Part shown: positions 8,002-61,742 of the stretch, one piece after another
Layout of the letters: every line of letters starts with the position of its first letter
Position numbering within the stretch: position 1 is the stretch's first letter
Assembly: GCA_911728435.2 (NCBI GenBank)
Contig: OU452201.1
Coordinates: forward strand, 24,180,001 to 24,244,000
Reading direction: 5' to 3'
DNA from: Apoderus coryli
Lineage: Eukaryota > Arthropoda > Insecta > Coleoptera > Attelabidae
Length of the DNA: 64,000 bases
Notes under the pieces: model-generated
Told to the model about the DNA's origin: nothing
Database searches by the model: none
Seen by the model: the letters and a program-made list of their open reading frames with translations, nothing else
Program-made: the position numbers and the translations under genes

Positions 8002-8188
8002 TTAAACATCGCTATTGATTCTTGGCTTTTCTAAACTATCAGTATTTTGGTTTCTGTTGTTCGGACTAGCAGGAACGTTCGTACTAATCGCGCTGCTCGG
8101 CACTTGGCTGGTAACCATGCTGTCCTCATCATCTGAGTTGTAGTTTTCAGCTGCTGTCAGCTTTTTCGCTGCAATTTCTTCAGCCCTT
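8002..8188 (-). CDS. mesh: mesh exon 14B: end of cytoplasmic tail B
   Basis: Starts after an AG acceptor, in phase with 13B (the AG of 13B plus A gives Arg), and ends in TAA. It encodes a 62-residue hydrophilic tail rich in Ser/Asn/Asp. The last residues are INSDV, and tail A ends ITDV. Both isoforms therefore finish in a Val-terminated motif that resembles a PDZ ligand; that function is an inference. Confidence 0.85.
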
Positions 8189-23100: not shown

Positions 23101-26100
23101 ACTCAGAAAGCTACTTACTATAAAACTCCATGGCAAAAAGACTCTAGCCGTCATAAAACCTTCATTGTCTATGACTTCAACTCCAGCACCATTGTCAAAC
23201 ATCATGATAACTTCAGATTGATTTAAGATGTATGTTGGTGTATATACGGTAACACCTTGAGAAAAAACGGTAGGTATATAAAAATACAAATAAAATCAAT
23301 CATTTTAACTAAGACATTATTTGAACATAGTTGATAGGAAGAGATAATATGCAATATACCGGGTTAAAACTAATTCTACCACCATGGGGATTTTCCAAAC
23401 TATTAGATATACAAGTTCAGTCAAATTAGACAATTTTATCCCCTATTAGATTTGACTTGCTCAAAAATATCCACAGGAGCTTTTAAGATACCGGGTGAAA
23501 ACTAAAAGGTTACATGTTTGTAGACTTAGTAACTTTTTTACTTATTATATTACAAATTTTAACTTTTTTTTCTGAATTCGGTTAAAATTTGACAAACTTT
23601 GTTGCAAAATTTGTGAAACTCCTCTATTACTGTTTCCCAAAAAGACCATTCTTTTACATAGAACTTTGAATAGGTGGTGATAGTTATTTGTTATTTATTG
23701 CAAAACTGTTAACGTGACATGTAAATTCAATCTTACATAAGTGTTACGTAATGAATATTACATCACTCTTTGGGGAATTTTATTTTTTATTATGGAATTA
23801 TTTCAAACACAAATGTCAAATAAATTCAAATATTTAAATGTCATGATTACCTTTTCTTCTGTGTTAAGTATTTCTGCTTATATTTTAATTCTGAAATGGA
23901 TTCTGATTCTGCAAAGTCGTAGAAAAGGTATAGCACATAACTCGAGCTGTAACTAATTTTCCATACTCGAGACTATTGCCTCACTCGCATGTAAAATATC
24001 AGTTACAGCACATGTCATGTAATATACTAATTTTCTACGACTGTCTTTAAATGTCTTTATTATATGTTCAATCATGATTCGAAAATGTCTTCTTCTTATG
24101 GTGCCTTATCCTTAAGGACGTTGGCTATTACATTTGCCCACCTGATCTTATTTGTAGCTGTCCTGAACAGTTCTATGGAGGTCATATTTGTCCATTGTCG
24201 TAGGTTTTTAAGCCATGAGTTGCGTCTTCTTCCTGGTCCCCTTTTGCTATTGATTTTGCCTTCAATTATAAGTTGGAGCAGTTCGTATTTTTCATTTCTC
24301 ATGATGTGGCCAAAATATTGTGTTTTTCGTTTCTTTATGAGGATCATGAGCTTTCTTTGTTCATTCTCCGCAAGACTTCCTCGTTTGTCGTATGACTCAT
24401 GTAGGATATTCTGAGCATTTTTCGGTAACACCAGAGTTCAAATGCTTGGATTCTTTTTTGTGTTGCCTCTGTCATTGTCCAGGCTTCAACACCGTAGAGT
24501 AAAGTAGAGAAAACATAGCACTTAAGTATTCGAGCTCTCAATGAAAGATTCAGCTGGCGACTACATAGGACTTTTTGCATTTTGTAAAATACTGTACGTG
24601 CTTTTTCTAGACGTGTTCTTATCTCTAGTGAGTGGTCCCAAGTTTCATCAAGATTGCTTCCAAGGTAAGTTATTCTTGTTACTTTTTCCAGATCTTTTCC
24701 GTTAACCTTGATCTTCACCGTTCTGTTCTGGTGTTTGCTGATGATCATCGTTTTTGTTTTCTGTGTATTTAGTTTCATTCCAAATTCTTCGCTGGCTGCC
24801 GTTATCCTCTCCATTAGACGTTGTAGTGCTTCAGCACTATCTGCCAGAATGACCGTGTCATCAGCATATCGCAGGTTGTTGATACATTGTCCATTTATAA
24901 TTATGCCATCTGAGGTGTCTTCCAGAGCTTTTTTAAATATCTCCTCCGAGTAAACGTTAAATAGTATGGGTGACAGAATACATCCCTGTGTTACTCCCTT
25001 CTCGATATTAATTTTTCCAGATGTTTTCTTTTTTATTCTAATTTTGGCCTTTTGTTCCTGATAGATTCGAAAATGTAGTACATTGTAATGCTGTTTTTCA
25101 TTTACCCGTGCACAATAAATATTTCCCACTAGTTGCCTAGGAAGTGCACGGGCAAATTTCCTGGTATTGACAAAAGTAGCGTCCGCCATGAAAAATTACC
25201 ATAGCAACGCCGACAATACAAACACACCAAATTGACAGTTTAGGTATCAATTTCATGTGTTTGACAAATTTATCGAATGGTTGGATTAACAGTGGCTACT
25301 AATATCTAGTGCATAAAATTTCAAAATCTTTGAACCTAACCACAGAAGTATTTGGTAAAAAAATACAATTTTAAAACGTAAGGCATCTACTTAAAATACA
25401 TTTACTTATAATTTGATGTTTTCGTCTCTTCGTAAAACATAGATATTTAGTTTTTACTGTAAGAAATAAATCATACCTGGGAAATGTTGGAATTTGAGTG
25501 AAGGTCGATCAAAAAATATCCTTTTGCCATCAGCAATGACATCTAAACGATACCTCCATCTGGCATACTGCGGTCTCCTTCGAACTTCAACTATTGTTGA
25601 GGAATTACCTCTAGCTACCACTGATGTTAACTGAGTAGCGCGTACTTCTCCATACGCATTAACATCCATTTGTTCAAAACGACCTTGCACTTCAAGATTG
25701 TCTAATTCCTTTCTGGATTTCACCAAGACAAACTCTCCCTTACCATTGAATGTATATTCGACATCGTCAAACGTTATCATGTGGGGATCACCATAAACAC
25801 CAGCAACACCTGAACATTGTAAAAATAAAACAGGAGCTTAGACTATAGTTTTTATACATTCGTTTTGTTTTATTTTATATATTATTCAGCAACGTTTGCC
25901 TCTTATTGATGATTAGAAGTGAAAACAGAAAGTTTAAGATTTATATTTATCTGATTTCGTTCTACCTATATAAGATTATTATATTCAGGAATGGAATTCA
26001 ACCTCCACGTAATAACTTTTAATACATTAGACTCTATAAGTCCTACAAGTATCAATGGTCAATGGATTTGACGAAAAACTTAATTCCTTATACAGGGTGT

Positions 26101-29100
26101 CTCACGCAACGTGAACTATTATTATCATCCCCTGATTTTGAAAACAAAAGGATTTACGGAAAACAGTTTTATATAAACGTTGATGATTCGTATTTAGTGT
26201 GTATAATTGCTTTGTAATAATAAAGCATACAGAGTGTGTCAATTTGGAGTTAAAAATATTAACTTCTTTATTTTCTATTGACCCTACCATATTTTTTTTA
26301 CAAATTATAATTGTAATTGTATTATACTGTACATTTATTGATTTTTTGACACCTATTGCTTTCGTACGTATAGTATATCCAAAGTCATTATAAAATATAT
26401 AAATTTAACGATTCTACTGGGGCTATCCGTTCCCATGCCTCTTTACATTATAAAAGGGCATCGAATGCAGCTTTTTTTTATACATTTCTCCCTCGTATAT
26501 AATCATGCCTGCCAGGGGGATATAAATGGATACCGACAGTAATAAAAATAAGTACTGGAAAAAGAAGAAGAATGAAACAAATAATTTTTGGCAACGTGTT
26601 ATTTTCTCAGATTAATCTAAATATAATCGGATGGACATCATATTATGTGGAATTTAAACAAGAAAATTTGTGTTTGACAAAACATGGTGACACAATATTG
26701 TAACCATAATCTGTTAGTTTTCCTTAGATTAATACAATTAAAGAAGATCTATCAAATTAGATAATAATTTTTAATAAAACCTCAAGTGGATGAGACTTTT
26801 TTCAGTCACTGTGTCAGACACTGCCGGTATACGACACGAGCGGAACAAGTTGGGAGTTTAAGCATCAAGATTTACATGTGCAAAGCCAGCGTCTTCTTTT
26901 AAATATTTATAATCAGTTAAGGTCTTAATATAATGAAGTGACGAATATTACGAAAACGGCTGGGATATAGGTATAACATATTATACACTACTATCTGTAG
27001 ATTTATAAGCAGAATCTAAAAAAAAATATTAAATAGGGTCGTATTTAAAATAAGCAAGTTGATATCCACTTCATTCCTGAAAACATTTTCACCGAATTGG
27101 CCCCTCGAGCTAAGTTCCAGAGTGCTGTTTCTCCATAATAGATCGAAACCCTTCCCGGTGGGACACCCTGTATAGATCAGTATATGCATTTTCCAAGTTT
27201 TACAGATTAATTTTTTGCGTAGCATCAGCAAACCACTTTTGAAATGGGCTTGTTTACCGAAACAAGACTTACTTGATGAGTCGTGGATCGATGAAACGGC
27301 CGTCTGGTGACAATATAGTGGTTAACCGACAAACTCTCGCAATTAAGTCTTGTTTTGATAAACAAACTCATTTCAAATATAGACGTCCCATTAAAGGTAG
27401 TATCTGCCCATCTATGTGTTGGTAATTTTGCTTAATGGCGTCAGTGAACCTTACACGCAGTCGATATAGTGAATTGTTGTTCACTCGGCATATTACCAAC
27501 AGAAACTAGATGTCGCCAAACACATGCTTTTAAACCACTTTCTCCAAACAGACCATTCACTTTTGATTATTTCTGTAACTACATCCTAAAGACAATCGAA
27601 TTCGCTACTTCGCTATAATGCAAATTGAAATAATTAAATAGAAAAAAAAAACACTACTGCTTCACGCTCTTGTTTGGACGCGTCTTCTCAAATATAAGTA
27701 CTGCCGGTTAGTGCGTTTTGCTGTCGAAGATGAAAGTTAGTAGTCTTTTTTAAAGAGTCTGTTCGGTAAAAGTCTCCTGTTTCATGCAGCCTCATGGGCG
27801 TTTGTGAAAGATTCCTGTCTTTACTTCTGCCTGTCGTCTTTCAATCTTGTGTGGAATTTGTGAACAAATCTCGAGATTCTTTAAAAACACTAATCAAGGC
27901 AGTGTGAAGTCTCAAGAACATGTCATTTGACTGACAGTGGATATGTAATACCTATATAATTGACAGATTATGACTAACGCTGCCTTTTAGAACGTCAAAA
28001 TGGCTATTTATTTACCTGGTGCTTGATAAGCTACGCAGTCCTGCGTAGGTCTTCTTTCAAATCTCAAAGTTTCGCAACCAACAGCTTGTTCATCCTGCCA
28101 TAAACAACAAAGATATTTCGGTACCATATCATTGAACCATTGCGATAATGTTGGTACTTTTGTCGCTTCATTGTAAGGCATTAATCCTAGATTATGAGAA
28201 CGTCTCGGGCTTGAGCCCCATTGTTGATCGTACGAGAGCATCAAATACAAATTTTTATCGTAGCAACATTGTTGTTCAGAACCTTCCAGGCTAAAAATCA
28301 TTACATTACATTAGAACATTCTAGGTACAGGGAAACTGAATATCAGTTCAGGGATAATTTTCATAAACATCTTTAAATTACATTAAAATAAGCAGGTCAT
28401 TTCTATCGAAATTGTTGAAAAATTACCGTACAATACAGATATATTAGGTCATTCAATAAGTCCGTAGATGGCGTTACTAGAATTTTTTCCATATGATTTT
28501 TATTTAATACTAACCTTCAAATGATACCTGTTTAAATTTGACAGCAATCTGACTATTGATTCGTCAGTAATAGCATTTTGTATGAAGTAACGTTTGTTAT
28601 TGAAAAAATGAAGTTTTGGTAAAGCATGGCTTTTAGATAACAAAAAATGAGGCTGCTATTACAGAAAACGTCAAAAAATTCACAAATTTAAGTCCAATGA
28701 TGAAGTAATCGCTGAAACTGAGGCTTATTTTGACCAGAAAAAGAAATCGTACTTGGGTCTAAACCGACATTGTGTTTTCGGAAAGCACCCTTCCGAGAGT
28801 GGGAGAAGACTATTGGACAAAATTCTTGCAAGAACTTTTCAGGCGATGGATGGAAGATATACACTGTCCCCGTTTTGTTAACGTTTATTTCTTTAGCCCT
28901 AAATGACCGCCAAGTTTGAACTACTCTACCCTGCATATTTATTTAATTTGGTGTTAAGGTTTTTGTTGTAAAAAACAGATCTAATAATACTTTTACTTAC
29001 GTCGGGGATCCAGTCTTAACACAATGAACAGCTTGATTGTTATAGTAACATGTTGGATTTGAATCTTTGTCACAATCTGTATCAGGCAAGAAACGTCCTT

Positions 29101-32100: not shown

Positions 32101-35100
32101 TGTCTGGTTTATCGAAGTAACATGCGACTTTACATATCTCCAAAGAAAATAATCTTATGGCGTCAAATCGCATCAACGAGGTGGCCAGTTGACAGGTCCA
32201 TTAATTAATCGTTGATCAAATGTCTCTTGCAGTAAATTAATTATATCGCGCGCTCTGTGGCATGGGCGACGTCCTACAGTAATGCCTGGCAATTGAGGTA
32301 CGACAAAGTTAGTAATCATGTCTCTGTACTGCTCACCGTTGATTGTAACGTTCAGACCATCAGCATTTTTGCAGACCAGGACCAATAATTCCACCGGCCC
32401 ATAAAGCGCCCGAACGGTGACTTTTTCTGGATGTAATGCTGTTTCGACAATGGCTTGTAGATTATCATCACTCCAAAATCGGCAATTCTGTTTGTTGACA
32501 TAATTATTTAACCAAAAGTGTGCTTCATCACCAACAAAATTTACCGTTTGTTTTCTTCGGCCCATTCACCAAATGGACGGCGCAGAAGATGATCGTGTGG
32601 CTTCGTTCCTGCGCAAGTTGAATCTTGAAACCACATAAACCAATATCTTTTCGCAACATTTTCCTACAGTGGATGGATACAAGTTTATGTGTTAAGCACG
32701 ACGACGAATTGACACATTTGGATCATCATCAACACTACGCTGCACGCCAGCAATTGCTTGTTGTGTACGCACTGTACGACGTCTTACGCGTTGCGTATTA
32801 TCGATTAGTGTAAACGTATTTCGAAAACGAGCCATAATTTCACGAATTAAGCGCTCTAAAGGACGATTATGCGCACCATAAAACTCACGGAACGCCCGAT
32901 GTGTTTCTCGGATTGAACCGTGTTTTCCAAAATAAATTTGAACAATTTGCAAACGTTGTTCCGGCGTGAGTCTATTCATGATGAATTGCTAAACCAAACT
33001 AACCTCAAAACAACCCCTTTATATAAGATTCTATATGTTACGTTAAAAGCGAATTTAACAGACGCCCATACGTTCCGTATATGGGATATATGCTCCGATC
33101 ATCGGTTAACTTGGAATCTACCCTACACTAGCTGGCCAAGAAATACTTGCATAGACTATCGGATACGCGGAAACCGCTGGAAATAATACACCTGCTCTAG
33201 GCATCAGTTTATAACTAGCAAATGGTATACATATTGTAACTTCTTCTTGAATATCTTTTCTAATAAAAGTACTTCTGTCTAACCTGGTATAATGCGTTAG
33301 CAAAACCCCCATTGAATGACACGTTCTTCCAGGTAACTATAATTGCGTGTTTGGGATTGAATGTTTCAGAACCAATTACACCTTCTCTAATATCCCATGT
33401 CAATCGTTCACGTATTTCAACACCCATTCTATCAGTTCGTTGCCTCAAATCTCGCTCCATTCTGAAATAGACTCCTGGTTTTCTTGTATCTAAATCTCCA
33501 TCTCTCAAGTTACCTAAGAAAATCAAAGAGTCATTGGAATTGTTTGTCGCACTTTTATCCTGATTTGAACTTACCAATTCGGCATTTGCTGAAAAAAATT
33601 CCCATAAACGACGGATCATTCCTCTTTGGCCAATCTCTAACAGGAAATACAAGAGGATATTCATAGTTCGGTGGTGGATCGCTAAACTCCAAAAAACCGT
33701 TAAGTGACACTCTGGTGTAGTTGAATCGAAATCCAAAGAATGGCAGTTGGAAGTTGAGATTTTTGTGCACTTGTGGTGACGACGATTGAATTTCCTTTTG
33801 ATAATCTCCCTCATTATCTGCATTGCCACCAGAATCGTAGTACGGATACATGAATATTCTTCGAATTTCTTGAAGTCGTTGTTCAGTAATTGTGTAGAAT
33901 GTTCCACCTCCATTTTCTTCTATATTTGGTGGAGCCACCCAAGATGTCATGGGATCTAAAATTGGAGTTTGGTAAATTATTTCAACATTGTTTTAATGCA
34001 CTGTAAAAATACAATACATACAACTGACAAACAAAATTTTGTGATCTACGGACGACTACGTGTTCCATAGTTTAGTAGGAAATTAACCTATTAAGTATTT
34101 CGCAGCATTTATTGTAAATATGAAATCAAAATTTGATTGACTTACATCCTTCAAATATTAAATAGAATAAGGGATCAAGTGGCACCTCATTTGCAAGATT
34201 ATGAAAGTGTCTTTTCAATGCTGTCTCATTTTTAAAATTTTAAATTAAAAGAACGTACACGTGAAAATAGAATGAAATTATTGATATACGCTTAGATCTA
34301 AACCAAACAAAATAAAGCCTTTTTTCAACGCTACTTTATTTTTGAAGCTTTTAATACCTTGAGAACAACAAATTTAATAAATGTTTAAATAAATTGATTA
34401 ATTTAAATAAATGTTTAAATAAATTAATTAATTTAAATAAATGTTTAAATAAATTATTAAATAAATTTAATAAATGTTTAAAATAGAGCATTGCATGCAA
34501 GAACACCGATTTTGTTTAAAGCGTTGTCTGATCAAGGTGGCCAGTCAAAAAGTGCTCCTAGTTTTAATTGAGCGTCCAGGAAATTGTCTATAATTGGCAG
34601 CAGACCATAGTAGCGACAGTTATTGCGATTTAAAAAAATAATATACACTATGTCCAAGATAAGAATGGGATAGCATTGGAATCTTGGAAACGGTATGAGT
34701 TACAATGTCGGTTAAATTAGAGAAAAGTTGTACCTTTTAAATGGTGTTTTCAAAAGTAAACTAACTGTAACCGTTTTCGAGAATTTTTGAAAAAACGATT
34801 TTTTGCGATTTTAGTTATTTATTCCTGACAATATTTTTACTGATATAAAAAAATTAAAAGCACTTTCTCATTGTTACTTTTTGAGGACAAAAAGATAGAG
34901 TTTACAAATTTTCACTAAAACTTTTCGTTTATGAAAAACCATCATCAACTTCGTTTTTTTAAATAGGTGGTTTATCACACTTAATGGTTTCAACAATATT
35001 TCAGTATTTTTAGCTGCTATTTAAACTTATTCAAGGAAATTGCCATAATTTGGCACTTAACTGAATGAATTCAGAGTAGTAGGTTTTGTAAAAACAGTAT

Positions 35101-38100
35101 TTCGTCGTTACTCATAATAATTTTTTATTTGAAATGGGCTTGTTTAACAAAACAAGATTTAAAATCCGAGAGTTTGTCTGTCAACCACTATACTTTCACC
35201 AGACGGCCGTTTCGTCGATCCACGACTCATCAGTGGTGATCGGTCAGTAGTTAACAGCCAAACTCTCGTAAATAATGTGGTATATACCCCACACGATACA
35301 GAGATGTAAAAGGATGTGTTTGGCGACATCTAGTTTATTCGTTGGTAGTACGCTGAGTGAACAACAGTTCCTATATCAGCTGCCTGGGAGGTCTCTGACC
35401 CCATAAAACAACTACCAACACATAGATGCGCCGATACTCCCTTAAGCGGGATCGCATATATTTGAAATGGGCTTGTTTAACAAAACAAGACTTAAAATCC
35501 GAGAGTTTGTCTGTCAACTACTATACTTTCACCAGACGGCCGTTTCGTCGATCCACGACTCATCAGTGGTGATCGGTCAGTAGTTGACAGCCAAACTCTC
35601 GTAAATAATGTGGTATATACCCCACACGATACAGAGATGTAAAAGGATGTGTTTGGCGACATCTAGTTTATTCGTTGGTAGTACGCTGAGTGAACAACAG
35701 TTCCTATATCAGCTGCCTGGGAGGTCTCTGACCCCATAAAGCAACTACCAACACATAGAAAAGCCCATTTCAAATATATGCGATCCCGCTTAAGGGAGTA
35801 TCGGCGCATCTATGTGTTGGTAGTTGCTTTATGGGGTCAGAGACCTCCCAGGCAGCTGATATAGGAACTGTTGTTCACTCAGCGTACTACCAACGAATAA
35901 ACTAGATGTCGCCAAACACATCCTTTTACATCTCTGTATCGTGTGGGGTATATACCACATTATTTACGAGAGTTTGGCTGTCAACTACTGACCGATCACC
36001 ACTGATGAGTCGTGGATCGACGAAACGGCCGTCTGGTGAAAGTATAGTGGTTGACAGACAAACTCTCGGATTTTAAGTCTTGTTTTGTTAAACAAGCGCA
36101 TTTCAAATATATGCGATCCCGCTTAAGGGAGTATCGGCGCATCTATGTGTTGGTAGTTGCTTTATGGGGTCAGAGACCTCCCAGGCAGCTGATATAGTAA
36201 CTGTTGTTCACTCAGCGTACTACCAACGAATAAACTAGATGTCGCCAAACACATCCTTTTACATCTCTGTATCGTGTGGGGTATATACCACATTATTTAC
36301 GAGAGTTTGGCTGTCAACTACTGACCGATCACCACTGATGAGTCGTGGATCGACGAAACGGCCGTCTGGTGAAAGTATAGTGGTTGACAGACAAACTCTC
36401 GGATTTTAAGTCTTGTTTTGTTAAACAAGCCCATTTCAAATATATGCGATCCCGCTTAAGGGAGTATCGGCGCATCTATGTGTTGGTAGTTGCTTTATGG
36501 GGTCAGAGACCTCCCAGGCAGCTGATATAGGAACTGTTGTTCACTCAGCGTACTACCAACGAATAAACTAGATGTCGCCAAACACATCCTTTTACATCTC
36601 TGTATCGTGTGGGGTATATACCACATTATTTACGAGAGTTTGGCTGTCAACTACTGACCGATCACCACTGATGAGTCGTGGATCGACGAAACGGCCGTCT
36701 GGTGAAAGTATAGTGGTTGACAGACAAACTCTCGGATTTTAAGTCTTGTTTTGTTAAACAAGCGCATTTCAAATATATGCGATCCCGCTTAAGGGAGTAT
36801 CGGCGCATCTATGTGTTGGTAGTTGCTTTATGGGGTCAGAGACCTCCCAGGCAGCTGATATAGTAACTGTTGTTCACTCAGCGTACTACCAACGAATAAA
36901 CTAGATGTCGCCAAACACATCCTTTTACATCTCTGTATCGTGTGGGGTATATACCACATTATTTACGAGAGTTTGGCTGTCAACTACTGACCGATCACCA
37001 CTGATGAGTCGTGGATCGACGAAACGGCCGTCTGGTGAAAGTATAGTGGTTGACAGACAAACTCTCGGATTTTAAGTCTTGTTTTGTTAAACAAGCCCAT
37101 TTCAAATATATGCGATCCCGCTTAAGGGAGTATCGGCGCATCTATGTGTTGGTAGTTGCTTTATGGGGTCAGAGACCTCCCAGGCAGCTGATATAGGAAC
37201 TGTTGTTCACTCAGCGTACTACCAACGAATAAACTAGATGTCGCCAAACACATCCTTTTACATCTCTGTATCGTGTGGGGTATATACCACATTATTTACG
37301 AGAGTTTGGCTGTCAACTACTGACCGATCACCACTGATGAGTCGTGGATCGACGAAACGGCCGTCTGGTGAAAGTATAGTGGTTGACAGACAAACTCTCG
37401 GATTTTAAGTCTTCTTTTGTTAAACAAGCCCATTTCAAATATATGCGATCCCGCTTAAGGGAGTATCGGCGCATCTATGTGTTGGTAGTTGCTTTATGGG
37501 GTCAGAGACCTCCCAGGCAGCTGATATAGGAACTGTTGTTCACTCAGCGTACTACCAACGAATAAACTAGATGTCGCCAAACACATCCTTTTACATCTCT
37601 GTATCGTGTGGGGTATATACCACATTATTTACGAGAGTTTGGCTGTCAACTACTGACCGATCACCACTGATGAGTCGTGGATCGACGAAACGGCCGTCTG
37701 GTGAAAGTATAGTGGTTGACAGACAAACTCTCGGATTTTAAGTCTTCTTTTGTTAAACAAGCCCATTTCAAATATATGCGATCCCGCTTAAGGGAGTATC
37801 GGCGCATCTATGTGTTGGTAGTTGCTTTATGGGGTCAGAGACCTCCCAGGCAGCTGATATAGGAACTGTTGTTCACTCAGCGTACTACCAACGAATAAAC
37901 TAGATGTCGCCAAACACATCCTTTTACATAATTTTTTATTATCATTTGTCAATTTATTTCTCTCTCAGTACAACATTTTATTCAGTACGCGGTTTTTTAA
38001 ATTTAGTTGACATCTTAGTGCTTTGTGAATTAATTAATAAATGCCTTTCTTAGATAAATGTTTTACGCTAAATAAGTGCCAAACTATGGCGATTTTGCTG

Positions 38101-41100
38101 GAATAATTTTAAATAACAGCTAAAACACTGAAAATTTGTTTAAACCTTTACGTGTGATATACCACCTATTTTTTAATTGAAAATGGTTTTAAATTTAACA
38201 ATAAAAAATCAAGGACCGTATTTAAAAAAACAAAGTTGATGATGGTTTTTTAAAAACGAAACGTCGTAGTGAAATTTTGTAAACGATATATTTTTTTCAT
38301 CAAAAAGTAACAATGAGGATGTGCTATTCGCTTTTTCTATATCTGTAAAAATGCCAGAAATAAATAAAAACTAAAATCGCAAAAAATTGTTTTATGAAAA
38401 ATTCTCGCAAACGGCTAAAGTTACTTTACTTTTGAAAACACCATTTAAAAGGTGTTTAAATTGCACAACTTTTCTCTTATTTAACCGACCGTTTCCAAGA
38501 GTCCAACGCTATCCCATTCTTATCTTGGATAGTGTGTATAAGATATGTTACTTAAGGCAGAGACAGACTATTATCACATCACGTGAAATCACATGCTAGT
38601 ATGCAATGTAACGGCACGTCCGAAAAATCTGCAATACAATTTACGCGTGCTTATATACCTAAATGGGTTTAGAAGTTGACTATTTAGTCAAAAACCGATG
38701 ATTTAAAATCGTGCTAGCGGCAACACTGGGTCAGTCAGTCAAAATATGTAATAAAAATGACCTGCGGTGTTACATGGGCTGTTTCAAAGGCGTGATATAC
38801 AGGGTGATTCATTATGGTTGCAACAAACGAAAACTGGAGATTCCTGAAAACAATTCAAGCATTTTTTGCCATTGAACCCATGCCCGCAAATGCTTCGTTA
38901 TCGAGATACAGGGTGTCCAAATTTAGTGGTCAAATTAACTTTTTTGTTCATTTCTCAAAAACTAGCTAACCGATTTTGACAAAATTTTACATGCATTTGA
39001 GGACAGATAACCTAAAATATTCTGAATTATTTTGGCTTTCATTAACTGTTCATTGGCGTAGATATAGGGGGCATTTGGATAAATTTTACACATAAATTAG
39101 TTAAACACAGCTTTGACAAGCTTCATTATTTTAAATTATTACTTTGTTAAAAAGAGCAACTTATAAGCTACAAAAAAGTTAATTACGTCGATGTTGTGGT
39201 TTCTACCATTTTTATGGAAACCGATAAATTGCAAGTTAATGGTAGATTTAAATCAAAATAACGTTTACCAGAAATCAAAACGTTCTTGAAAATTTCGCGG
39301 CCTAATAGCACGAGGGTTGTTTATGCCATCTCTAGTAAACGTTGCTTCATCTGACCAGCGCACTTTCTCTAAAAATCTTTCATCTTCTTGATGCTTACCA
39401 AGAACCCAATTACAAAATAGTAGGTGCCTTTGACGGTCTCCAGGATGTAGAGCCTGGACACCTTGATGATGATAGAGCATTTCTCGATTTAATAGTCTCC
39501 AAACAGTTGTTCGAGGTAATGCCAATTGAGTTGGAATTCTTCTAGTGCTTATTTTCGGATCGTCTAAAACTAAATCCACTATGTTTTCTTCAGTTTGAAT
39601 ATTTAGACGATGCAGTCGTTTGTTAACTCTAGGTAAAATGCTAAATGCTCCCTATCGTTCTAAGCCTGTGAAATGTAGCCGTCCATGTTTTGTGAACTGG
39701 ATGACGTCTATTAGGATAACTAATTTGGTATTCTATGGCCGCTGCTCTTGCATTTGCATTACACGAACATATTCTTCAATTGAAAAACTCATTTTAATTT
39801 AGAAAAAAACTGTCCAATATTATAAACAACTACGAAACAATAAAACAATTTTAACTTTTAAATTTGTTGCTGTCAAAGTTTTTTTTTATTGTTGCGGCAT
39901 TTGTTTTCCATGGCAACTTTGATTTTTCAGTTGGTTTTCTGGTAAACGTTATTTTGATTTAAATCTACCATTAACTTGCAATTTATCGGTTTCTATAAAA
40001 ATGGTAGAAATCACCACATCGATGTAATTAACTTTTTTGTAGCTTATAAGTTGCTCTTTTGAAAAAAGTAATAATTTAAAATAATGAAGCTTGTCAAAGC
40101 TGTGTTTAACTAATTTATGTGTAAAATTTATCCAAATCCCCCTATATCTACGCCAATGAACAGTTAATGAAAGCCAAAATAATGCAGATTATTTTAGGTA
40201 ATCGGTCCTCAAATGCATGTAAAATTTTGTTGAAATCGGTTAGCTAGTTTTTGAGAAATGAACAAGAAAGTCAATTTGACTACTAAATTTGGACAGCCTG
40301 TATCTCGATAACGAAGCATTTGCGGACATGGGTTCAATGGCAAAAAATGCTTGAATTGTTTTCAGGAATCTCCAGTTTTCATTTGTTGCAACCATAATGA
40401 ATTGCAAATGTGATAACAGGTGACCTCACGTGACGTGATAATAGTCTGTCTGAACCTTCAGTTTAGCTGTGTTTAACTTCTAAAACTCCTCTTCAGTTCA
40501 AGTCAAGTTTAGTTTTCCGCCGTCAAGTAAACCGACACCTGGAAGATTCGTTTTGATTTGTTTTTTTTTTTTGCAAAAATATGACAGCACACACCCGTAA
40601 CATTTACCTACATGAACCCAATGATTGCCCTGCATGCATAATACTTATGAAAATGAAAATGGGTGGCCATTTTTTAATTTAAATTATTCTTTATTCTCTG
40701 TATACCTAAACACATGATCTTATTTCAGAATGTTGCGTTATTTTATTAGCCCAGAATGCTGAAATGTAGGCCAGATAACTCAAATAAATAAATATTTATT
40801 TTTTATTAAAAATTTGTATAATGAAATACTTATGGAGTGAAAGTAAAATTTAAAAATTTATTTATATTAAAATATAATTATTGATAGATATTTATTCCTA
40901 CGACTAGTTTAGTCATTTTGTCTTGGAAATGATGCATTATTATTTCTTAATTATGTACTACGATATAAATAAAATAATAAGATATAAAGAGTTACTTTTT
41001 CAGATATTTTAGTATTTACTCATTACTTGATAAGATAGGATAATTTTCTAGGGTAGTATCATGTTTATTGATTTTATTTATATCTGTTGTAATTCTAACG

Positions 41101-43075
41101 CAATAGTAAATAATAAAAGTTTAACAAAGGTAGACTACAAATAATACCTACAAGTGCGTAAATACAATGAACTGTATTTATTTATATTGCTCCACATGAA
41201 TACATGATTCAAATATGTAAATTTAAAGAGAATTTCGGCAGTTACTTAGGTTAATATAAAATTTATAATTTGAGAAGGATTCATGGATTATAGCTCAATA
41301 AAAAGTAATTTTGGCTGAACTTTCGTTTAGGCGAAATCAAATGTATAAGAAATTTTTCTGTAGTTCGTGTGTATGTAGGTATGATTTTCAATGATGTTTT
41401 TGCTTTGCATTCTAGACGCTTGTCCAAATACAAACATAAAAAATTGAAAAAAGTGGTCAATCAATCTTTTTCTTATATTCTTATATTCAAAATAACATTG
41501 AGAATGTACCTAATGAAAATTTATCAATTCACGCACCTCATTTCGGTTTTCTAAAGTCCACAGAAGTTCCAGTAACCCCAAACAAAGTTAACGCATATCC
41601 GCAAGTAGGGATGCCGCGAGACTCGAAATTGTTATGTAGTCTCGTGTCGGCGAGACGAGACCAGGCTGAGAGTCTCGAGGTTAAAATAAAAGTTTAATTA
41701 AATGAATATCATACCGAACAAAACACATGTAAGCTGTACCTATAGTTAGTTTATATTATTTCTTAGTTTACTTAAATTGATAACAATTACAAATCAGATT
41801 TGTAATTGTTATCAATTCATCCTTGAATAATGCATTAAGTAGCTTTCTAATTTCGACCCTATTATTACCACTGATGATGAGAGTATATACTCTCGAAACA
41901 TGTATGGTACATTACCATTCCATTACACTTTCACTCCTCGTCATGGATTATTTTTCGAAAAAAAAAAAAAAAAAAAACAAGATATTTTTTGCTGAGTTCA
42001 TTAATTTCTTAAAAAAATACTTAATCTTAATTTGTGTCTAAATTAGACAAAATTCGAATAAATAGATCTTATGAAAGTTGCATTTATTCCAAGGAATATA
42101 AAAATCTAAAAATATATCGGTGCAGCATTTTCGGATTAGGATTATTAACCCTCAAATATCTAAAAATATCTCAAACTTTATTTTGTGCGCGTTCACAATA
42201 CTTTCCCTGGGTCGGGGAATTCGTTAAACCAAAAAAACTTTTGTATTACCATAGTACCTATTTAACATTTTATTGTTTCTAAAATCGATAGTTTATGAGG
42301 GAATGTCCCCCTACTGAAATGCCCACCCTGTACAAAATTATTAGGATTAATCCATGTTTGCTATACGCTATAACACTTCTGACCGTAAGTATGGGTTCTT
42401 GGCAAATTAATTTTCATTTAGAAATTATTTTTAGAATGAAAAATAAAAAAACAATAATACTAAACAAATATTTAAAAAAAGTAGTTTCTAAAGCTTCGTT
42501 AGTTATTTGATGATTTATTAACCACACCCAAAAAAATGGCGACAAAAATGTGACAACAAATGACTGAAACAATGATAATGATTAATGATAAAGCGTTAAC
42601 AACTAACCGTAATCAGTTCCATAATAAGTACTATACTTTCCAAATTTGCTGTTAATTTCCGAATTATTATTAGTTCCTGTGTTCGCATTTTGATTTTGCA
42701 CACTCAGAGTTTCAACGTTGTCTGTTTTAGAATCAACGTTTTGCTCTTCAGTTACTGTGTTTTGTGTGTCAGGATTAGCAGGTGTGTCTACGACAAAAAC
42801 AAAAACAATATGGAATCTATCTAAACTGTTTTAGTTAATATTGTTAGTATTTATTAATTTTTATTGTGTAAAAATATATAATGTATCTTTTAATTACCAT
42901 TTTGAGGTTCATTTCCCTCTTTTGGATTCTCAGGATTCTCCTCACCACCCTCTGCGGGCATTAAATGTTGTGTATTACCAGTGTTTGGTACGCCCGGTAC
43001 ACTTTCCGCATCAGGGTTTTGAGCACAAACATAATTTAAACACAAAATTGTCAAAACTAACCAATTAAACTTCAT
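8002..43075 (-). CDS. mesh: Mesh, smooth septate junction membrane protein (whole gene, two C-terminal isoforms)
   Basis: Single-pass membrane protein of arthropod gut septate junctions (family knowledge: partners Ssk and Tsp2A). Exons, minus strand: 1 43075-42898; 2 42787-42608; 3 33955-33575; 4 33513-33284; 5 30385-30079; 6 30019-29759; 7 29693-29327; 8 29267-29001; 9 28290-28016; 10 25809-25477; 11 23255-23119; 12 22883-22268; then 13A 20138-19546, or 13B 9098-8927 plus 14B 8188-8002. All junctions are GT-AG and the phases close, giving 1374 aa (A) or 1296 aa (B). Domains: signal peptide (1-18), low-complexity acidic spacer, NIDO (about 150-420), IPT-like (430-510), AMOP (about 635-815), vWD (from about 820), CCP (about 1110-1177), then membrane segment and tail. 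The first coding exon has a good signal peptide; any 5' untranslated exon is not identified. Confidence 0.93.
8189..8926 (-). other. mesh intron between 13B and 14B
   Basis: 738-bp intron (donor GTAATT, acceptor TCTAG on the minus strand). About 8250-8660 is less AT-rich and may be a decayed LINE fragment, but I cannot identify it. Confidence 0.5.
8927..9098 (-). CDS. mesh: mesh exon 13B: alternative transmembrane exon
   Basis: Begins with a phase-1 acceptor exactly like exon 13A; spliced to exon 12 it reads [17 protein letters not shown], then a hydrophobic stretch ([16 protein letters not shown]) and a stop-transfer cluster [12 protein letters not shown]. The 13A counterpart reads [16 protein letters not shown] and then a different helix. 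The two exons are clearly homologous and share phase, so they arose by exon duplication and are used alternatively. Confidence 0.9.
9575..9582. repeat. target-site duplication, left copy (GTACCTAC)
   Basis: Matches 18509-18516 exactly; borders the composite element 9583-18508. Confidence 0.75.
10077..11214 (+). pseudogene. mariner-like transposon relic
   Basis: Terminal inverted repeats of about 90 bp pair 10077-10165 with 11110-11214 and share the block TCTATCTTAAACAG. The coding strand starts [14 protein letters not shown] at 10300, moves to another frame with [16 protein letters not shown], and near 10850-10915 reads [20 protein letters not shown], the usual W-PP-S-DL-TP motif before the last catalytic acid. 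Several frameshifts and stops make it inactive. Confidence 0.75.
11487..12620 (+). pseudogene. Crypton-like tyrosine recombinase relic
   Basis: Fragments in changing frames. A start at 11487 gives [17 protein letters not shown]; a block near 11740-12030 gives [15 protein letters not shown] and then [20 protein letters not shown]; the C-terminal part near 12505-12600 gives [18 protein letters not shown], which fits the His/Arg box of tyrosine recombinases (normally TGH). The Gln in place of His and many stops show that it is dead. The assignment rests on motif recognition only. Confidence 0.5.
13134..13300 (+). repeat. 5' LTR of Gypsy element
   Basis: 167 bp, starts TGTAGCATAG and ends TATAACACA. 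Identical to 18065-18231 base for base in my comparison. Short for the family. Confidence 0.95.
13301..13318 (+). promoter_or_regulatory. primer binding site of Gypsy element
   Basis: Begins TGGCGCAGACG directly after the 5' LTR; TGG pairs with the CCA end of a tRNA primer. Which tRNA primes it needs comparison with the host tRNA set. Confidence 0.7.
13364..17722 (+). CDS. Gypsy gag-pol polyprotein, 1452 aa, intact
   Basis: One frame without a gag/pol frameshift. Order: gag-like capsid region (1-200); zinc knuckles around 207-236 (CRRC..., [14 protein letters not shown]); aspartic protease with VDTGS near 350; reverse transcriptase with YIDDIIVYS near 632; RNase H from about 775 with TVDAS and later ETDHKP; integrase HHCC finger near 1000-1040 ([17 protein letters not shown]) and the D-D-E core (VGVDIF near 1060, VSDGGPEF near 1115, NGAVERAV near 1150); a Ser/Asp-rich C-terminal tail. 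All catalytic acids are present. No envelope frame follows. The start at 13364 lies 64 bp after the LTR and fits the gag N-terminus. Confidence 0.95.
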   Translation: MDFRGIPPMRFSGNLSENWSFWKQRFVTYLKATEICKKEESTQCAQLLTLIGVEGIRIYNTFVFEHAEVDKIQVLLNKFEQYFMPKKNLTYMRHKLLTRKQHDGETVEQYITELKNMALSCELGDLKDSLIKDLLICGLRNEVTREKLLHGDQNSLDDVIRVCISVEAMKECNKVITNGHGANEVCIDAVTRNQQQKRKYRNPEERKCRRCSRLHGYGKCPAYGQKCNKCGGMNHFSSSCNVNKRDGNISYYNKSENFYRKSNFKAKLRNDKQSSTVSSVSQVRNVDNCNDLSNSNPRNSDLYGQVLDICENNFLFVGSITEMEQGIVCGVECESWVANVLINEQEVRMKVDTGSMANIMPVGILRKISFDFNNLKQTSVSLASYTGDPLPIIGECYLNCTYNNIEKALNFYAVDLDGCCLLGLKACQQFQLINIHSVDKIEHFPAADFRSLINKYDFLFSGVGCLKKPYHIELKADAKPLACLPRRVPFAVQEKLRESLNQLERDRMIVRDEGSAEWVNPIVLVHKRLTNTIRICLDPFALNKYIKRHYFHIPTIEELTSKFAGCKVFSTLDASQGFMQIKLDYESSKLCTFATPMGRYRFLRLPYGLASAPEVFQERMAEIFGNIEGCDVYIDDIIVYSGDMRCHLKTLSTIFERAKQYNIRFNKAKCKFGLSKVSYMGHIFSEGGIAPDDTKVEAIKNMPTPQNKQDVQKFLGLVNYVGRFINNLSEKTSVLRNLLRKDLCFVWAEEQQKCFDMLRNIVSQTPALRFFDPNLPVTITVDASQNGMGAAIVQDGVPCAYASRAFTECQKRYAQIEKELYSILFGCIKFHQYVFARRFVVETDHKPLISIIKKPINSCPARLQRMLIQLRKYDFDLVYRPGKELIVADALSRAYENKIFEDNIDLEIDEQVCLVSGFLNATNEKREQIKMLTSKDTELSVLKNQIKVGWPNNIKAVPENIRFYFRFRAEITEADDLLYKGTKLIVPLALRREFLEKLHLGHLGVNKICNKANNSFYWPGMNKSISDMVLACDVCQRHQKSNPPGPMISHEVPHIPWYKVGVDIFHFDNSAFLVVVDYYSKYFEIKNLNKDLTSENVIVNLKSVFSCHGIPTICVSDGGPEFSSLIFKKFSRDWDLQHIVTSPRYPQSNGAVERAVQTIKSILRKCKDDNTDPYLGLLNYRNSPLEGQSSPANILFNRNLKDLIPIQASHFEPKLYNKARFDNHVTNSKIRQKILYDKKGVKLRPDFDIGCDVLVKKYPNDCWREAVILEKVSIRAYRVKFKDGRVLIRNEKFIKLYKKPLEMMNTLPSSSSSNVSDNDQLHDGKYVYVPVLYNDEDTDSNYVSVDLQSESDNSTESVIDNEVADSTILDADFLDESTVLKNLDKGKARNLVSSNSTRSNSLTEDHSTESLLRKESSSDSFKDVSSNIFNSVTKYGREIKKPSKYSQYIFFD
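18054..18064 (+). promoter_or_regulatory. polypurine tract of Gypsy element
   Basis: AAAAGGGGAGA lies immediately before the 3' LTR, where plus-strand DNA synthesis would be primed. Confidence 0.85.
18065..18231 (+). repeat. 3' LTR of Gypsy element
   Basis: 167 bp, identical to the 5' LTR, followed by the duplicated target CATAC. Confidence 0.95.
18517..19545 (-). other. mesh 3' flank of exon 13A, nothing else recognised
   Basis: AT-rich. It should contain the 3' untranslated region and polyadenylation site of the isoform A transcript; an AATAAA on the minus strand lies near 19115. A plus-strand open frame at 19010-19411 resembles nothing and is probably chance. Confidence 0.45.
19546..20138 (-). 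CDS. mesh: mesh exon 13A: alternative last exon with transmembrane segment and long tail
   Basis: Phase-1 acceptor; joined to exon 12 it reads [16 protein letters not shown], then the helix [18 protein letters not shown] and a tail of about 165 residues. The tail has an acidic SDDDDDF patch, many SP/TP sites and a C-terminus IITDV. Stop TAG at 19546. It is an alternative to 13B+14B, about 10.5 kb further downstream. Confidence 0.93.
20445..20870 (+). pseudogene. Crypton-like tyrosine recombinase N-terminal relic
   Basis: The frame starts [14 protein letters not shown], continues with [14 protein letters not shown], and later gives [19 protein letters not shown] and FKISKITSF in other frames. 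This looks like the SAM-like N-terminal domain of KIAA1958/Crypton-type recombinases. The catalytic domain is absent and frames are broken. The sequence differs from the relic at 11487, so it is a second family. Confidence 0.5.
21351..22187. mobile_element. foldback MITE, TA target duplication
   Basis: Begins CAGGGTGTTAATTAAGTATC and ends with its complement; arms of at least 130 bp are nearly identical and include the block TCATATAAGCAGGTGTCCGG. TA flanks both ends (21349-21350 and 22188-22189). The centre carries no frame. Termini and TA duplication fit a mariner-related non-autonomous family. Confidence 0.85.
22268..22883 (-). CDS. mesh: mesh exon 12: end of vWD and CCP/sushi domain
   Basis: 616 bp, phase 0 in and 1 out. 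Starts [18 protein letters not shown] (vWD C-terminal motif). It ends with a CCP module: [10 protein letters not shown], then [32 protein letters not shown], with the four cysteines and the conserved Trp of a sushi domain. The branch point for the two alternative ends lies at its donor (GTAAGT). Confidence 0.93.
23119..23255 (-). CDS. mesh: mesh exon 11: vWD middle
   Basis: 137 bp, phase 1 in and 0 out. Encodes [15 protein letters not shown], then [16 protein letters not shown] and PWSFI. Donor GTAAGT. Confidence 0.9.
23256..24095. other. mesh intron sequence, nothing recognised
   Basis: AT-rich part of the intron between exons 11 and 10. No repeat partner in the window that I could find. 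Confidence 0.4.
24096..25110 (-). pseudogene. LINE reverse transcriptase 3' part, 5'-truncated
   Basis: Minus-strand frame gives [14 protein letters not shown] (RT palm), [11 protein letters not shown] (catalytic YADD), [17 protein letters not shown], and, after a frameshift near 24380, [10 protein letters not shown] and [11 protein letters not shown]. This is the conserved C-terminal half of a non-LTR reverse transcriptase of the RTE-like or similar type. Endonuclease and the 5' half are missing. It is inside the mesh intron, same strand as the gene. Confidence 0.85.
25477..25809 (-). CDS. mesh: mesh exon 10: vWD start
   Basis: 333 bp, phase 1 on both sides. Encodes [16 protein letters not shown], the GDPH motif that opens von Willebrand D domains, followed by [13 protein letters not shown] and ending FQHFPG. 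Donor GTATGA is slightly weak. Confidence 0.93.
26093..27170. mobile_element. putative TA-flanked element with CAGGGTGTC ends
   Basis: Left end TA-CAGGGTGTC (26091) and right end GACACCCTG-TA (27162-27172) mirror each other over a short stretch. It encloses the repeat 26395-26965. Only the outer nine bases are clearly inverted, so this pairing may be coincidental. Confidence 0.35.
26395..26965 (+). repeat. dispersed repeat, inverted partner of 44130-44770
   Basis: Matches 44770-44130 on the other strand at high identity, including GGGGCTATCCGTTCCCATGC at one end and GTGACGAATA at the other. Both copies carry a nested Tc1-like MITE at the same point, so the composite moved as a unit. Confidence 0.75.
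27230..27560 (+). repeat. decayed single copy of the 333-bp hammerhead repeat
   Basis: Contains the repeat's GAAATGGGCTTGTTT end, the ribozyme region, and the segment CATCTATGTGTTGGTA through GATGTCGCCAAACACAT, all diverged and with one segment reordered. It lies in the mesh intron between exons 10 and 9, 8 kb from the main array. Confidence 0.75.
27268..27309 (+). ncRNA. degenerate hammerhead ribozyme
   Basis: Reads TTGATGAG-TCGTGGATCGAT-GAAACGGCCGTC-TGGTG. The first core base is T instead of C and the 5' strand of stem I no longer pairs with TGGTG, so self-cleavage is not expected. Confidence 0.5.
28016..28290 (-). CDS. mesh: mesh exon 9: AMOP end
   Basis: 275 bp, phase 2 in and 1 out. 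Encodes [13 protein letters not shown], then [17 protein letters not shown] and [20 protein letters not shown]. The CC and CCLW cysteine pairs belong to the AMOP domain. Confidence 0.93.
28445..28760 (+). pseudogene. internally deleted mariner relic
   Basis: Starts with a mariner-type terminus (AGGTCATTCAATAAGTCC), then an ATG and MKFW at about 28607, and jumps to a frame reading [19 protein letters not shown], the C-terminal motif of mariner transposases. The catalytic part is deleted. Confidence 0.6.
29001..29267 (-). CDS. mesh: mesh exon 8: AMOP start
   Basis: 267 bp, phase 2 on both sides. Encodes [14 protein letters not shown], then [18 protein letters not shown] and [18 protein letters not shown] and the following cysteines mark the AMOP domain. 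Confidence 0.93.
29327..29693 (-). CDS. mesh: mesh exon 7: extracellular region between IPT and AMOP
   Basis: 367 bp, phase 1 in and 2 out. Encodes a beta-rich segment with [16 protein letters not shown] and [14 protein letters not shown], ending VVWSR. NLTT and NLTE are potential N-glycosylation sites. Confidence 0.92.
29759..30019 (-). CDS. mesh: mesh exon 6: IPT/TIG-like domain
   Basis: 261 bp, phase 1 on both sides. Encodes [20 protein letters not shown], the P-x-GN-x-GGT-x-V-x-ITG-x-C signature of an IPT/TIG fold, and ends [12 protein letters not shown]. Confidence 0.93.
30079..30385 (-). CDS. mesh: mesh exon 5: NIDO end
   Basis: 307 bp, phase 0 in and 1 out. Encodes [36 protein letters not shown] and [15 protein letters not shown], the nidogen-like core, and ends CNKDIG. 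Confidence 0.93.
30557..31650 (+). mobile_element. LINE 3' end with (ATT)n tail
   Basis: A frame at 30557-31042 encodes the end of a non-LTR reverse transcriptase ([18 protein letters not shown], then [12 protein letters not shown]). About 600 bp of 3' untranslated sequence follow, ending AAATAAAT(ATT)n at about 31635-31652. It is 5'-truncated, as usual for LINE copies, and lies antisense in a mesh intron. Confidence 0.8.
31850..33010 (-). pseudogene. mariner-like (DD34E) transposon relic
   Basis: Two minus-strand frames: 32979-32692 starts [20 protein letters not shown] with the helix-turn-helix region ([12 protein letters not shown]), and 32565-32173 has [20 protein letters not shown] with the first catalytic Asp, then [18 protein letters not shown] and NGPVNWPPR. 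The parts are in different frames and the second and third catalytic positions are damaged. It lies between mesh exons 5 and 4. Confidence 0.85.
33284..33513 (-). CDS. mesh: mesh exon 4: NIDO middle
   Basis: 230 bp, phase 1 in and 0 out. Encodes [37 protein letters not shown] and [15 protein letters not shown]. An open frame runs through the 61-bp intron into exon 3, but only the spliced form joins the two domains in frame. Confidence 0.93.
33575..33955 (-). CDS. mesh: mesh exon 3: NIDO start
   Basis: 381 bp, phase 1 on both sides. Spliced to exon 2 it reads [18 protein letters not shown] and continues with [20 protein letters not shown] and [10 protein letters not shown], the N-terminal part of NIDO. 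An internal ATG is not the gene start. Confidence 0.93.
33956..34639 (-). other. mesh intron 2, 3' part
   Basis: AT-rich; contains a small minisatellite at 34381-34480 and nothing else that I recognise. Confidence 0.5.
34381..34480. repeat. 30-bp AT-rich minisatellite, about three units
   Basis: Units starting at 34381, 34411 and 34441 each begin ATGTTTAAATAAATT; the third decays. Confidence 0.8.
35118..35129. repeat. direct repeat left of the array (TAATTTTTTATT)
   Basis: Identical to 37929-37940. Probable target-site duplication of the array insertion. Confidence 0.65.
35197..35238 (-). ncRNA. hammerhead ribozyme, unit 1
   Basis: Minus-strand copy of the motif described at 35997, with unchanged core and stems. 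Together with 35530 it marks the inverted part of the array. Confidence 0.85.
35530..35571 (-). ncRNA. hammerhead ribozyme, unit 2
   Basis: Minus-strand copy, 333 bp from unit 1, sequence unchanged. The array reverses direction about 190 bp further on. Confidence 0.85.
35997..36038 (+). ncRNA. hammerhead ribozyme, unit 3 (reference copy)
   Basis: Self-cleaving RNA motif read in order: stem I 5' strand CACCA; core CTGATGA; stem II GTCG-TGGAT-CGAC; core GAAA; stem III AC-GGCC-GT (two base pairs, tetraloop, self-complementary); cleavage site GTC at 36031-36033; stem I 3' strand TGGTG. CACCA and TGGTG are complementary. All invariant core bases are present. A minimal stem III is typical of animal hammerheads, which often work as dimers; the palindrome CGGCCG would allow that. 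Activity is inferred. Confidence 0.88.
36330..36371 (+). ncRNA. hammerhead ribozyme, unit 4
   Basis: Same sequence as the copy at 35997, 333 bp downstream. Confidence 0.85.
36663..36704 (+). ncRNA. hammerhead ribozyme, unit 5
   Basis: Same sequence as the copy at 35997. Confidence 0.85.
36996..37037 (+). ncRNA. hammerhead ribozyme, unit 6
   Basis: Same sequence as the copy at 35997. Confidence 0.85.
37329..37370 (+). ncRNA. hammerhead ribozyme, unit 7
   Basis: Same sequence as the copy at 35997. A substitution about 40 bp downstream (CTTCTTTTG for CTTGTTTTG) is shared only with unit 8. Confidence 0.85.
37662..37703 (+). ncRNA. hammerhead ribozyme, unit 8
   Basis: Same sequence as the copy at 35997; last one before the truncated unit. 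Confidence 0.85.
37929..37940. repeat. direct repeat right of the array (TAATTTTTTATT)
   Basis: Second copy of the 12-bp block at 35118-35129. Confidence 0.65.
38564..40463. mobile_element. nested TIR element in mesh intron 2
   Basis: Outer ends carry the inverted block ACAGACTATTATCAC (left 38571 on, right near 40440-40453). Nested within it is a second long-armed element from 38800 (TA-CAGGGTGATTCATTATGG) to about 40402; its arms of roughly 450 bp are inverted copies of each other and include GGACATGGGTTCAATGGC near 40325. The right terminus of the inner element is damaged. Confidence 0.7.
39265..39792 (-). pseudogene. mariner-related transposase N-terminal half
   Basis: Minus strand starts [19 protein letters not shown] at 39792, breaks frame, then continues from about 39579 with [20 protein letters not shown] (helix-turn-helix), [19 protein letters not shown] and [18 protein letters not shown], where SDEATF holds the first catalytic Asp. 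The remainder of the catalytic domain is absent: the element is internally deleted between its long arms. Confidence 0.75.
41776..41816. repeat. perfect 20-bp inverted repeat
   Basis: ATTGATAACAATTACAAATC, one central A, then its exact complement. It lies 50 bp upstream of the hammerhead-like motif. Confidence 0.85.
41866..41909 (+). ncRNA. hammerhead-like motif, different family
   Basis: TACCA-CTGATGA-T-GAGAGTATATACTCTC-GAAA-CATG-TA-TGGTA. Stem I (TACCA/TGGTA) and a strong stem II are complementary, stem III would be AC-AT-GT and the site GTA. An extra T between CTGATGA and stem II departs from the canonical core, so activity is doubtful. Confidence 0.4.
42608..42787 (-). CDS. mesh: mesh exon 2: acidic spacer
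   Basis: 180 bp, phase 1 on both sides. Encodes a Asn/Thr/Gln/Glu-rich segment beginning [17 protein letters not shown] and ending [10 protein letters not shown]; no domain. It joins exon 3 in frame (Asp-Pro-Met). Low complexity hides it from similarity searches, but splice sites and phases fit. Confidence 0.88.
42898..43075 (-). CDS. mesh: mesh exon 1: signal peptide
   Basis: ATG at 43075, [20 protein letters not shown]: charged start, hydrophobic core and a likely cleavage after VCA. Followed by a Pro/Glu/Asn-rich stretch. Ends phase 1 at a GTAATT donor; intron 1 is 110 bp. Confidence 0.9.
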
Positions 43076-60300: not shown

Positions 60301-61742
60301 AGGTTTAGAATTGTAGTTAGATCATTCTTATTAAGTTTAACACTTACGTAATATACACTGCTCAAACAAATTAAAGGAACACTTTTGGATAACCCTGTAA
60401 TTTTTTGGCTTGCTGTTATTAACAAATGAAAATTATATTTTCATAATGGATTTACATTTTATTGTTGTGAGATAAGTTTAATATTCCACAGCAAGTACAA
60501 AAAATAAAGTGATTATGAAAATATTCACATTTAGGTTTTATGTCGCGGTAGGCTTAGAGAGCGTCATCGGACAACGGCATGACAGTTTGTAGTTGTTGAA
60601 TTCATTATCTGTCAAAATGAGAGATCTTAGCGAGATAGAAGTCACTCGTGCGATAGCTTTAGTTGAAATCGGTGTAAAAAATCGACAAGTAGCTAGAAAT
60701 TTTAATCGCAGTATGTCAGTTACCAAACGTGTGTAAAATCGCTATAGAGAGACTGGACGATATAAAAGATAAACCGGATATGGTCGGAATCGCAAAACTA
60801 CACAAATTCAGGACCGATATTTAGTAGTTTCTTCTTTGCGAAAACGAATAGCGACAGCAAAAGACCTTCAAAGTACACTTAGGATGGCTCATCAGGTAAC
60901 CATTTCTAACCAGACTGTTAGAAACAGGTTACGGGAAGGAGATTTAAAACCAAGAAGGCCGGTACGAAAACCTGTTTTAACTCGACATCATAAAACTATG
61001 CGATTAAATTTTGCTCGTGAACATTTGGGATGGCAACGTCGACAATGGAGGCCAGTACTTTTTACGGACGCATCAAGATTTCATCTCACTCGTTGTGATG
61101 ACGGATTGCATGTGTATAGACGTTCGAATGAACGATAATCCACTGCTGCTGTACAAGAAGTATCCAGATTTAGAGATGGTCCAATAATGGTCTGAGGTGG
61201 AATAAGTTTGGACGCAAAAACCGATCTTGTAGTGATACTGGGAAGTCTTACAGCTGCAAGATATATGGATATCAGTCTGTTAGATTAGGTTATCCCTGCA
61301 GCATATGGTATATGCCCTGATTTTCTTGTCATGCAGGATAATGCAAGGCCTCATACTGCTGCGATTACTGTAGATTTTCTTAACGAGCATGAAATTCGTA
61401 AAATGGATTGGCCAGCGATAAGCCCTGACGTCAATCCAATTGAACCCTTATGGGATATATTGGACAGACGAGTTCGACGTCGTCCAAATCCACCTCAAAC
61501 CCTTCGGCAATTAACAGAAGCCCTAATCGAAGAGTGGGACAGTATATCAAATAGTCATTCGTGCTGCTGGAGGGCACACGTTATACTAAAACACTTGGTT
61601 TTCAGATAGCGGAACATTACCATTTGAAAAATGGTTTCTTTTCATTTTCTTATTGGCACTTTTTTTTAAATGTGGATCTTAGTTTACAAATAAAGAATTA
61701 GTTGAAAGTTCTATTAATTCGTTAATTACAAGAAAATATGTG

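Follow-up and report, generated by a model that had tools for sequence, protein, structure and literature searches.

The window (the whole stretch of Apoderus coryli DNA that was analyzed, 64,000 nt in length) contains the gene mesh on its minus strand, and one mesh intron holds an array of 333-bp repeats. The limits of this intron (33956..42607) were set by tblastn of beetle mesh proteins and by its GT..AG ends, with GT at 42607, AG at 33956, and the next exon running from 33955. Upstream, two mesh exons at approximately 43.07-42.89 and 42.79-42.61 kb were recognized from weak matches (best E 3e-5 and 5e-5, respectively) that were in order and had a signal-peptide-like start. Exons thus flank the array on the minus strand, and its position inside a mesh intron, proposed by the first-pass annotation, was confirmed. 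The stitched mesh protein had 256 protein matches. Weevils were at the top of the best 120 of these 256, among which the closest were Cylas formicarius (84%), followed by Rhynchophorus ferrugineus and Ceutorhynchus assimilis (83%) and by longhorn and leaf beetles (82%); on protein similarity, the host is a beetle and most likely belongs to the weevils or a closely related group.

Other features were observed in the window. Two further candidates for C-terminal mesh exons were found on the minus strand at 9096-8926 and 8190-8041 (70% and 46%, respectively, to the Cylas formicarius isoform X2), and the sequence suggests that mesh may have an alternative last part formed from exon candidates within 8041-9096. 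A reverse transcriptase fragment (RVT_1, E 2e-19) was located inside the mesh gene (24344-25195, minus strand); kinship with the repeats is not implied. In addition, the plus strand carries an intact open frame of 1455 aa (13355-17722), which by eye resembles a retrotransposon polyprotein, and a Tc3-type transposase helix-turn-helix (PF01498, E 1e-18; 60773-61138).

Architecture of the array and its hammerhead motifs

Tandem Repeats Finder resolved the array into two runs with a period of 333, one at 35126-35759 (1.9 copies) and one at 35761-37929 (6.5 copies), approximately 8.4 units in total. The first run is a minus-strand block and the second is a plus-strand block, and they are arranged head-to-head, 5′ end meeting 5′ end, with the inversion point at 35760. 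Unit positions were numbered from the base after the predicted cut between GTC and TGGTG. With the flanking direct repeat (described below) taken at its longest, the insertion occupies 35130..37927 (unit-like sequence spans 35126-37929). It consists of an inverted block, M, on the minus strand at 35130..35759 (unit positions 109-333, 1-333, and 1-72) and a direct block, P, on the plus strand at 35761..37927 (unit positions 61-333, five full units, and 1-229). Cut sites were spaced by 333 nt in the one minus-strand interval and in all five plus-strand intervals. The exact spacing given in the first-pass annotation was therefore reproduced, but not as a single head-to-tail run, since the array inverts. 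Similarly, its count of nine units, eight of them complete, holds for the eight complete hammerhead motifs, whereas only six units are full from cut to cut.

When the other five full cut-to-cut units were compared with the reference unit (36034-36366), identity was 98.5-100%. The unit has 333 nt and 44% GC, and none of its six circular frames contained an open frame longer than 56 aa. Sequences resembling Pol III box A were present on both strands with 1-2 mismatches, and one sequence resembled box B with 2 mismatches; none was convincing.

Eight matches to the type I hammerhead model (RF00163) were obtained with cmscan, each with 33.8 bits (E 5.7e-6 in 3 kb and 1.2e-4 in 64 kb). Two were on the minus strand (35196..35239 and 35529..35572) and six were on the plus strand (35996..36039, 36329..36372, 36662..36705, 36995..37038, 37328..37371, and 37661..37704), and all eight were in one polarity of the unit. 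Each motif scored 0.2 bit below the Rfam gathering score of 34. A default Rfam scan at the gathering cut-off returned one match, a tRNA, and no hammerhead; scans by E-value recovered all eight.

The motif is composed of CUGAUGA, stem II (GUCG/CGAC), GAAA, a stem III of 2 bp capped by a GGCC loop, GUC, and stem I (CACCA/UGGUG). Loop II has 5 nt, and stem I is interrupted by an internal loop, past which it extends by 12 + 10 positions; 22 of 22 pairs there are standard in the unit. The first-pass annotation had listed CTGATGA, GTCG/CGAC, GAAA, GTC, and CACCA/TGGTG in each complete unit, all of which were present, and the covariance-model matches agree with its identification of a hammerhead. Its comparison with the minimal stem III hammerheads of animal retrozymes and Penelope-type elements was corrected: by the description in PMC7229834, a type I hammerhead whose stem III has 2 bp and whose stem I is long is of the invertebrate retrozyme kind and not of the minimal Penelope kind.

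The predicted fold of the unit circle had −118 kcal/mol compared with −82.4 (sd 6.1) in 200 shuffles (z −5.9). The antisense circle was equally structured (−107.2 vs. −74.9 kcal/mol; z −6.3), and folding thus gives no preference for the ribozyme strand. The energy model, which ignores loop-loop contacts, favored an alternative core pairing by 8.7 kcal/mol; this held for the circle as well as for a linear context of 253 nt.

A third motif resembling a type I hammerhead stands alone outside the array, on the minus strand (56595-56715; 23.8 bits, E 0.25; nhmmer E 2e-11 to the unit). Its long stem I differs in sequence but pairs well (z −4.0, equaled by 1 of 200 shuffles), and the motif is located immediately beyond an open frame (56710-57129) that had no Pfam match. 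In 25 of the 33 pairs of inverted repeats around the open frames next to this motif, nothing resembled a terminal repeat.

Because mesh is encoded on the minus strand, the two M ribozymes are sense in the mesh transcript. The self-cutting of mesh pre-mRNA at the minus units, suggested in the first-pass annotation, is possible but doubtful, since in this transcript the antisense P block would precede the M motifs and could base-pair with them: M and P are inverted arms of 643 nt, 98% complementary and 31 nt apart. The long hairpin that the array can form in the intron of this conserved gene should restrain its own sense ribozymes in the pre-mRNA.

Direct repeats and a second copy

The array is placed exactly between the two copies of a 13-bp direct repeat, ATAATTTTTTATT, that abut it on the left (35117..35129) and on the right (37928..37940) and that we read as a target site duplication. 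For approximately 200,000 pairs of positions drawn at random from the window, when the junctions were free to slide by 3 nt, a shared abutting word of at least 12 nt was found in 8.5e-5 and one of at least 10 nt in 2.5e-4; when AT-rich flanks alone were used, a word of at least 11 nt was found in 2e-4 of 50,000 pairs. The direct repeats at its ends support the view that the array is an inserted mobile element. The array occupies the loop between the left arm (34642..35059) and the right arm (38073..38540) of a palindromic MITE-like element, which match in two pieces with 80.5% and 85% identity. The arms are much more diverged than the 333-bp units, and the best reading is that the array was inserted by reverse transcription into this older element.

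BLAST of the unit against the window revealed a second, diverged copy on the plus strand (27240..27531), which consists of an inverted piece (unit 74 to 41) followed by unit positions 303-333 and 1-227. This copy was 83% (232 columns) to 84% (263 columns) identical to the unit, and its inverted piece of 34 nt was identical at 32 of 34 positions. It is flanked by a 10-bp direct repeat, AAACCACTTT, at 27230..27239 and 27532..27541. Thus, its plan is that of the array (direct repeats, inverted piece, then direct piece), and its direct part is shorter than one unit. The copy is located outside the MITE-like element, and BLAST of the palindromic arms found nothing near it except one weak 44-bp match (27022-27063). 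The 5′ strand of stem I is missing from its hammerhead, and an Rfam scan up to E 1 did not recover the motif; this copy therefore looks inactive.

With the duplications taken at their longest, the outer ends of the array and of the second copy were very similar: the left end was at unit position 72 in both, and the right end was at 229 in the array and at 227 in the second copy. The inner junctions differed (109/61 in the array and 41/303 in the second copy). Agreement within 4 nt at both ends was obtained in 7.6e-4 of a million trials (two uniform draws), a value from a test chosen post hoc, and the constancy of the outer ends rests on two copies. The left ends of the targets (..TATT and ..TT) can pair over 4 and 2 nt, respectively, with the unit beside position 72. 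Positions 72-75 and position 227 are predicted to flank a single branched loop of the circle.

Origin of the array

The array is very probably an animal non-LTR retrozyme that was inserted by reverse transcription. We infer cleavage, circle formation, reverse transcription, double priming, and the enzyme as follows. A source copy elsewhere would be transcribed to multimeric RNA, the type I hammerheads would cut this RNA after GTC to release 333-nt monomers, and a host ligase would close the monomers to circles that pair with themselves. At a nicked target, such RNA would be copied for several laps by a reverse transcriptase that acts in trans, most likely one from a Penelope-like element, and a circular or multimeric template would account for the several laps per priming. 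One nicked strand would prime near unit position 228 and yield the 6.5 plus units, whereas the other would prime near position 72 and yield the 1.9 inverted units. The two cDNAs would then be joined head-to-head, and staggered nicks would produce the 13-bp duplication. Outer ends would be constant and inner ends variable because each nicked strand would prime at a preferred site and synthesis would stop anywhere, as in target-primed reverse transcription. The idea of twin priming is known from LINE-1.

For the narrower statement that the reverse transcriptase came from a Penelope-like element, our confidence is evenly divided. More tentatively, we propose that a Penelope-type enzyme may start at two fixed sites of the circle (~72 and ~228), one for each nicked strand, and so leave constant outer ends and variable inner junctions. 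If this is true, then the two copies are a genomic record of an integration step that the published model left open. Several results were counted against the retrozyme explanation: the alternative core fold, the structured antisense strand, the shortfall of 0.2 bit in the Rfam score, and the alternating unit variants described below. We observed no Penelope element within the 64-kb window, which was also counted against it, as was the distance between the two outer ends (~180 nt apart on the unit), unlike the terminal repeats of Penelope elements.

Among the other explanations, the one that survives best concerns the inverted block. This block could have originated by self-priming or template switching on antisense or multimeric RNA and not by priming from both nicked strands, an origin that we consider possible but rather unlikely. 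In PMC3846280, the palindromes at the inverted junctions of Penelope elements are the argument for preferring an antisense template and self-priming as the source of the inverted copies. In the present case, however, the inner junctions differ and the outer ends are constant, for which two priming events are the simpler explanation.

A plain satellite origin, in which unequal crossing-over enlarged the array and the hammerhead was irrelevant to its spread, would be consistent with the distribution of variants within the array. Variants in P alternate by two (65G and 165T were present in P1 and P3 and absent in P0, P2, and P4), and 49C was common to P5 and to P6, the last partial unit, as would result from local duplication of dimers or monomers. 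Singleton changes were found four times in 634 bp of M, all of them transitions, vs. 0 in 2169 bp of P (P = 0.0026 if changes were uniform). This origin is nevertheless very unlikely: two separate copies each have direct repeats, their outer ends are constant, and the direct part of one copy falls short of a unit. For the retrozyme reading, the alternation of P variants implies that a single uniform monomer circle did not serve as the template; the pattern calls for a dimer circle, a switch of template, or a subsequent duplication of the DNA. P may also have grown locally after the insertion.

The repeats could also be the intrinsic center of the palindromic MITE-like element, that is, of a foldback DNA transposon with internal tandem repeats that moved along with it, since the array is in the loop between arms that are 80-85% alike. 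We regard this as highly improbable: the array itself is directly bounded by the 13-bp direct repeat, divergence between the arms greatly exceeds that between the units, and the second copy has the same ends and a direct repeat of its own, with no arms nearby beyond the weak match mentioned. Long, near-identical inverted repeats are prone to misassembly. An error of assembly as the source of the head-to-head layout is extremely unlikely, because the outer ends coincide exactly with the direct repeat and the same plan recurs, with different junctions, in the diverged second copy. Least credible is a viroid-like RNA that replicates from RNA to RNA and was only incidentally copied to DNA, which would share the general design of a small, highly paired, ribozyme-bearing circle, but the Rfam hammerhead matches were in one polarity only, leaving a double-strand rolling circle with two ribozymes unsupported, and the exact motif patterns had 0 matches in viral_contigs, which is weak evidence. 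The typed patterns also had 0 matches in genome_contigs; these collections are viral and prokaryotic and are uninformative on insects. The intrinsic center, the plain satellite, the assembly error, and the viroid-like replicon were thus rejected on the direct repeats, the ends, the second copy, and the polarity.

Comparison with known systems

Animal non-LTR retrozymes are described in PMC7229834 as tandem units of 170-400 nt with type I hammerheads, GC content below 50%, a target duplication of more than 4 bp, and expressed circular RNAs; insects are named there only among other phyla. The array shares the sequence features. Type I hammerheads were found in eight of eight complete motifs, the units had 333 bp and 44% GC, the duplications were 13 and 10 bp long, no open frame exceeded 56 aa, and the circle was predicted to be self-paired (z −5.9). 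Circles and cleavage were demonstrated for the published retrozymes, whereas the array is known from its sequence. The comparison with animal retrozymes in the first-pass annotation is supported by these published features. Penelope hammerheads are minimal and have no proper stem III, whereas the array motif has a stem III of 2 bp with a GGCC loop. In the sections of PMC7229834 that were compared, no description of head-to-head insertions or of constant double ends for animal retrozymes was found, and an inverted head-to-head insertion with constant ends was not found in the open-access literature (main texts, mostly titles and abstracts), which is a weak negative.

Plant LTR retrozymes are likewise nonautonomous retroelements with hammerheads and a circular RNA intermediate, the latter being only presumed for the array, but as described in PMC4918200 they have type III hammerheads, LTRs, and a 4-bp duplication, in contrast to type I and 13 and 10 bp here. 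The same source reports hammerhead repeats with 15-bp duplications in Nematostella, and a target duplication is therefore no novelty in itself. The pDo500 repeats of Dolichopoda cave crickets (PMC2837043) and the W-elements of Schistosoma (PMC8490949) are, by description, similar to the array as invertebrate tandem repeats with a hammerhead; unlike our reading of the array, both are presented in these sources mainly as satellite DNA.

In plan, the array resembled another kind of element. The Penelope elements of Adineta vaga, as described in PMC3846280, have direct copies and an inverted terminal copy at the 5′ end, mostly head-to-head, with target duplications of 8, 9, or 10 bp (some elements have none). 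An inverted head-to-head piece and a duplication were present in both copies studied here. Penelope elements encode a reverse transcriptase with GIY-YIG, whereas the unit has no open frame longer than 56 aa, and the spacing of the two outer ends on the unit is a further difference from them (PMC3846280). They can, according to the same source, mobilize other sequence in trans. The discussion of PMC7229834 proposes LINEs or Penelope elements as helpers; these candidates of the 2020 paper for the return of animal retrozyme circles to DNA rest on indirect grounds. Together, the preserved target duplications, the inverted piece at the 5′ end, and the constant ends provide a fingerprint for comparison with each autonomous element of the same genome.
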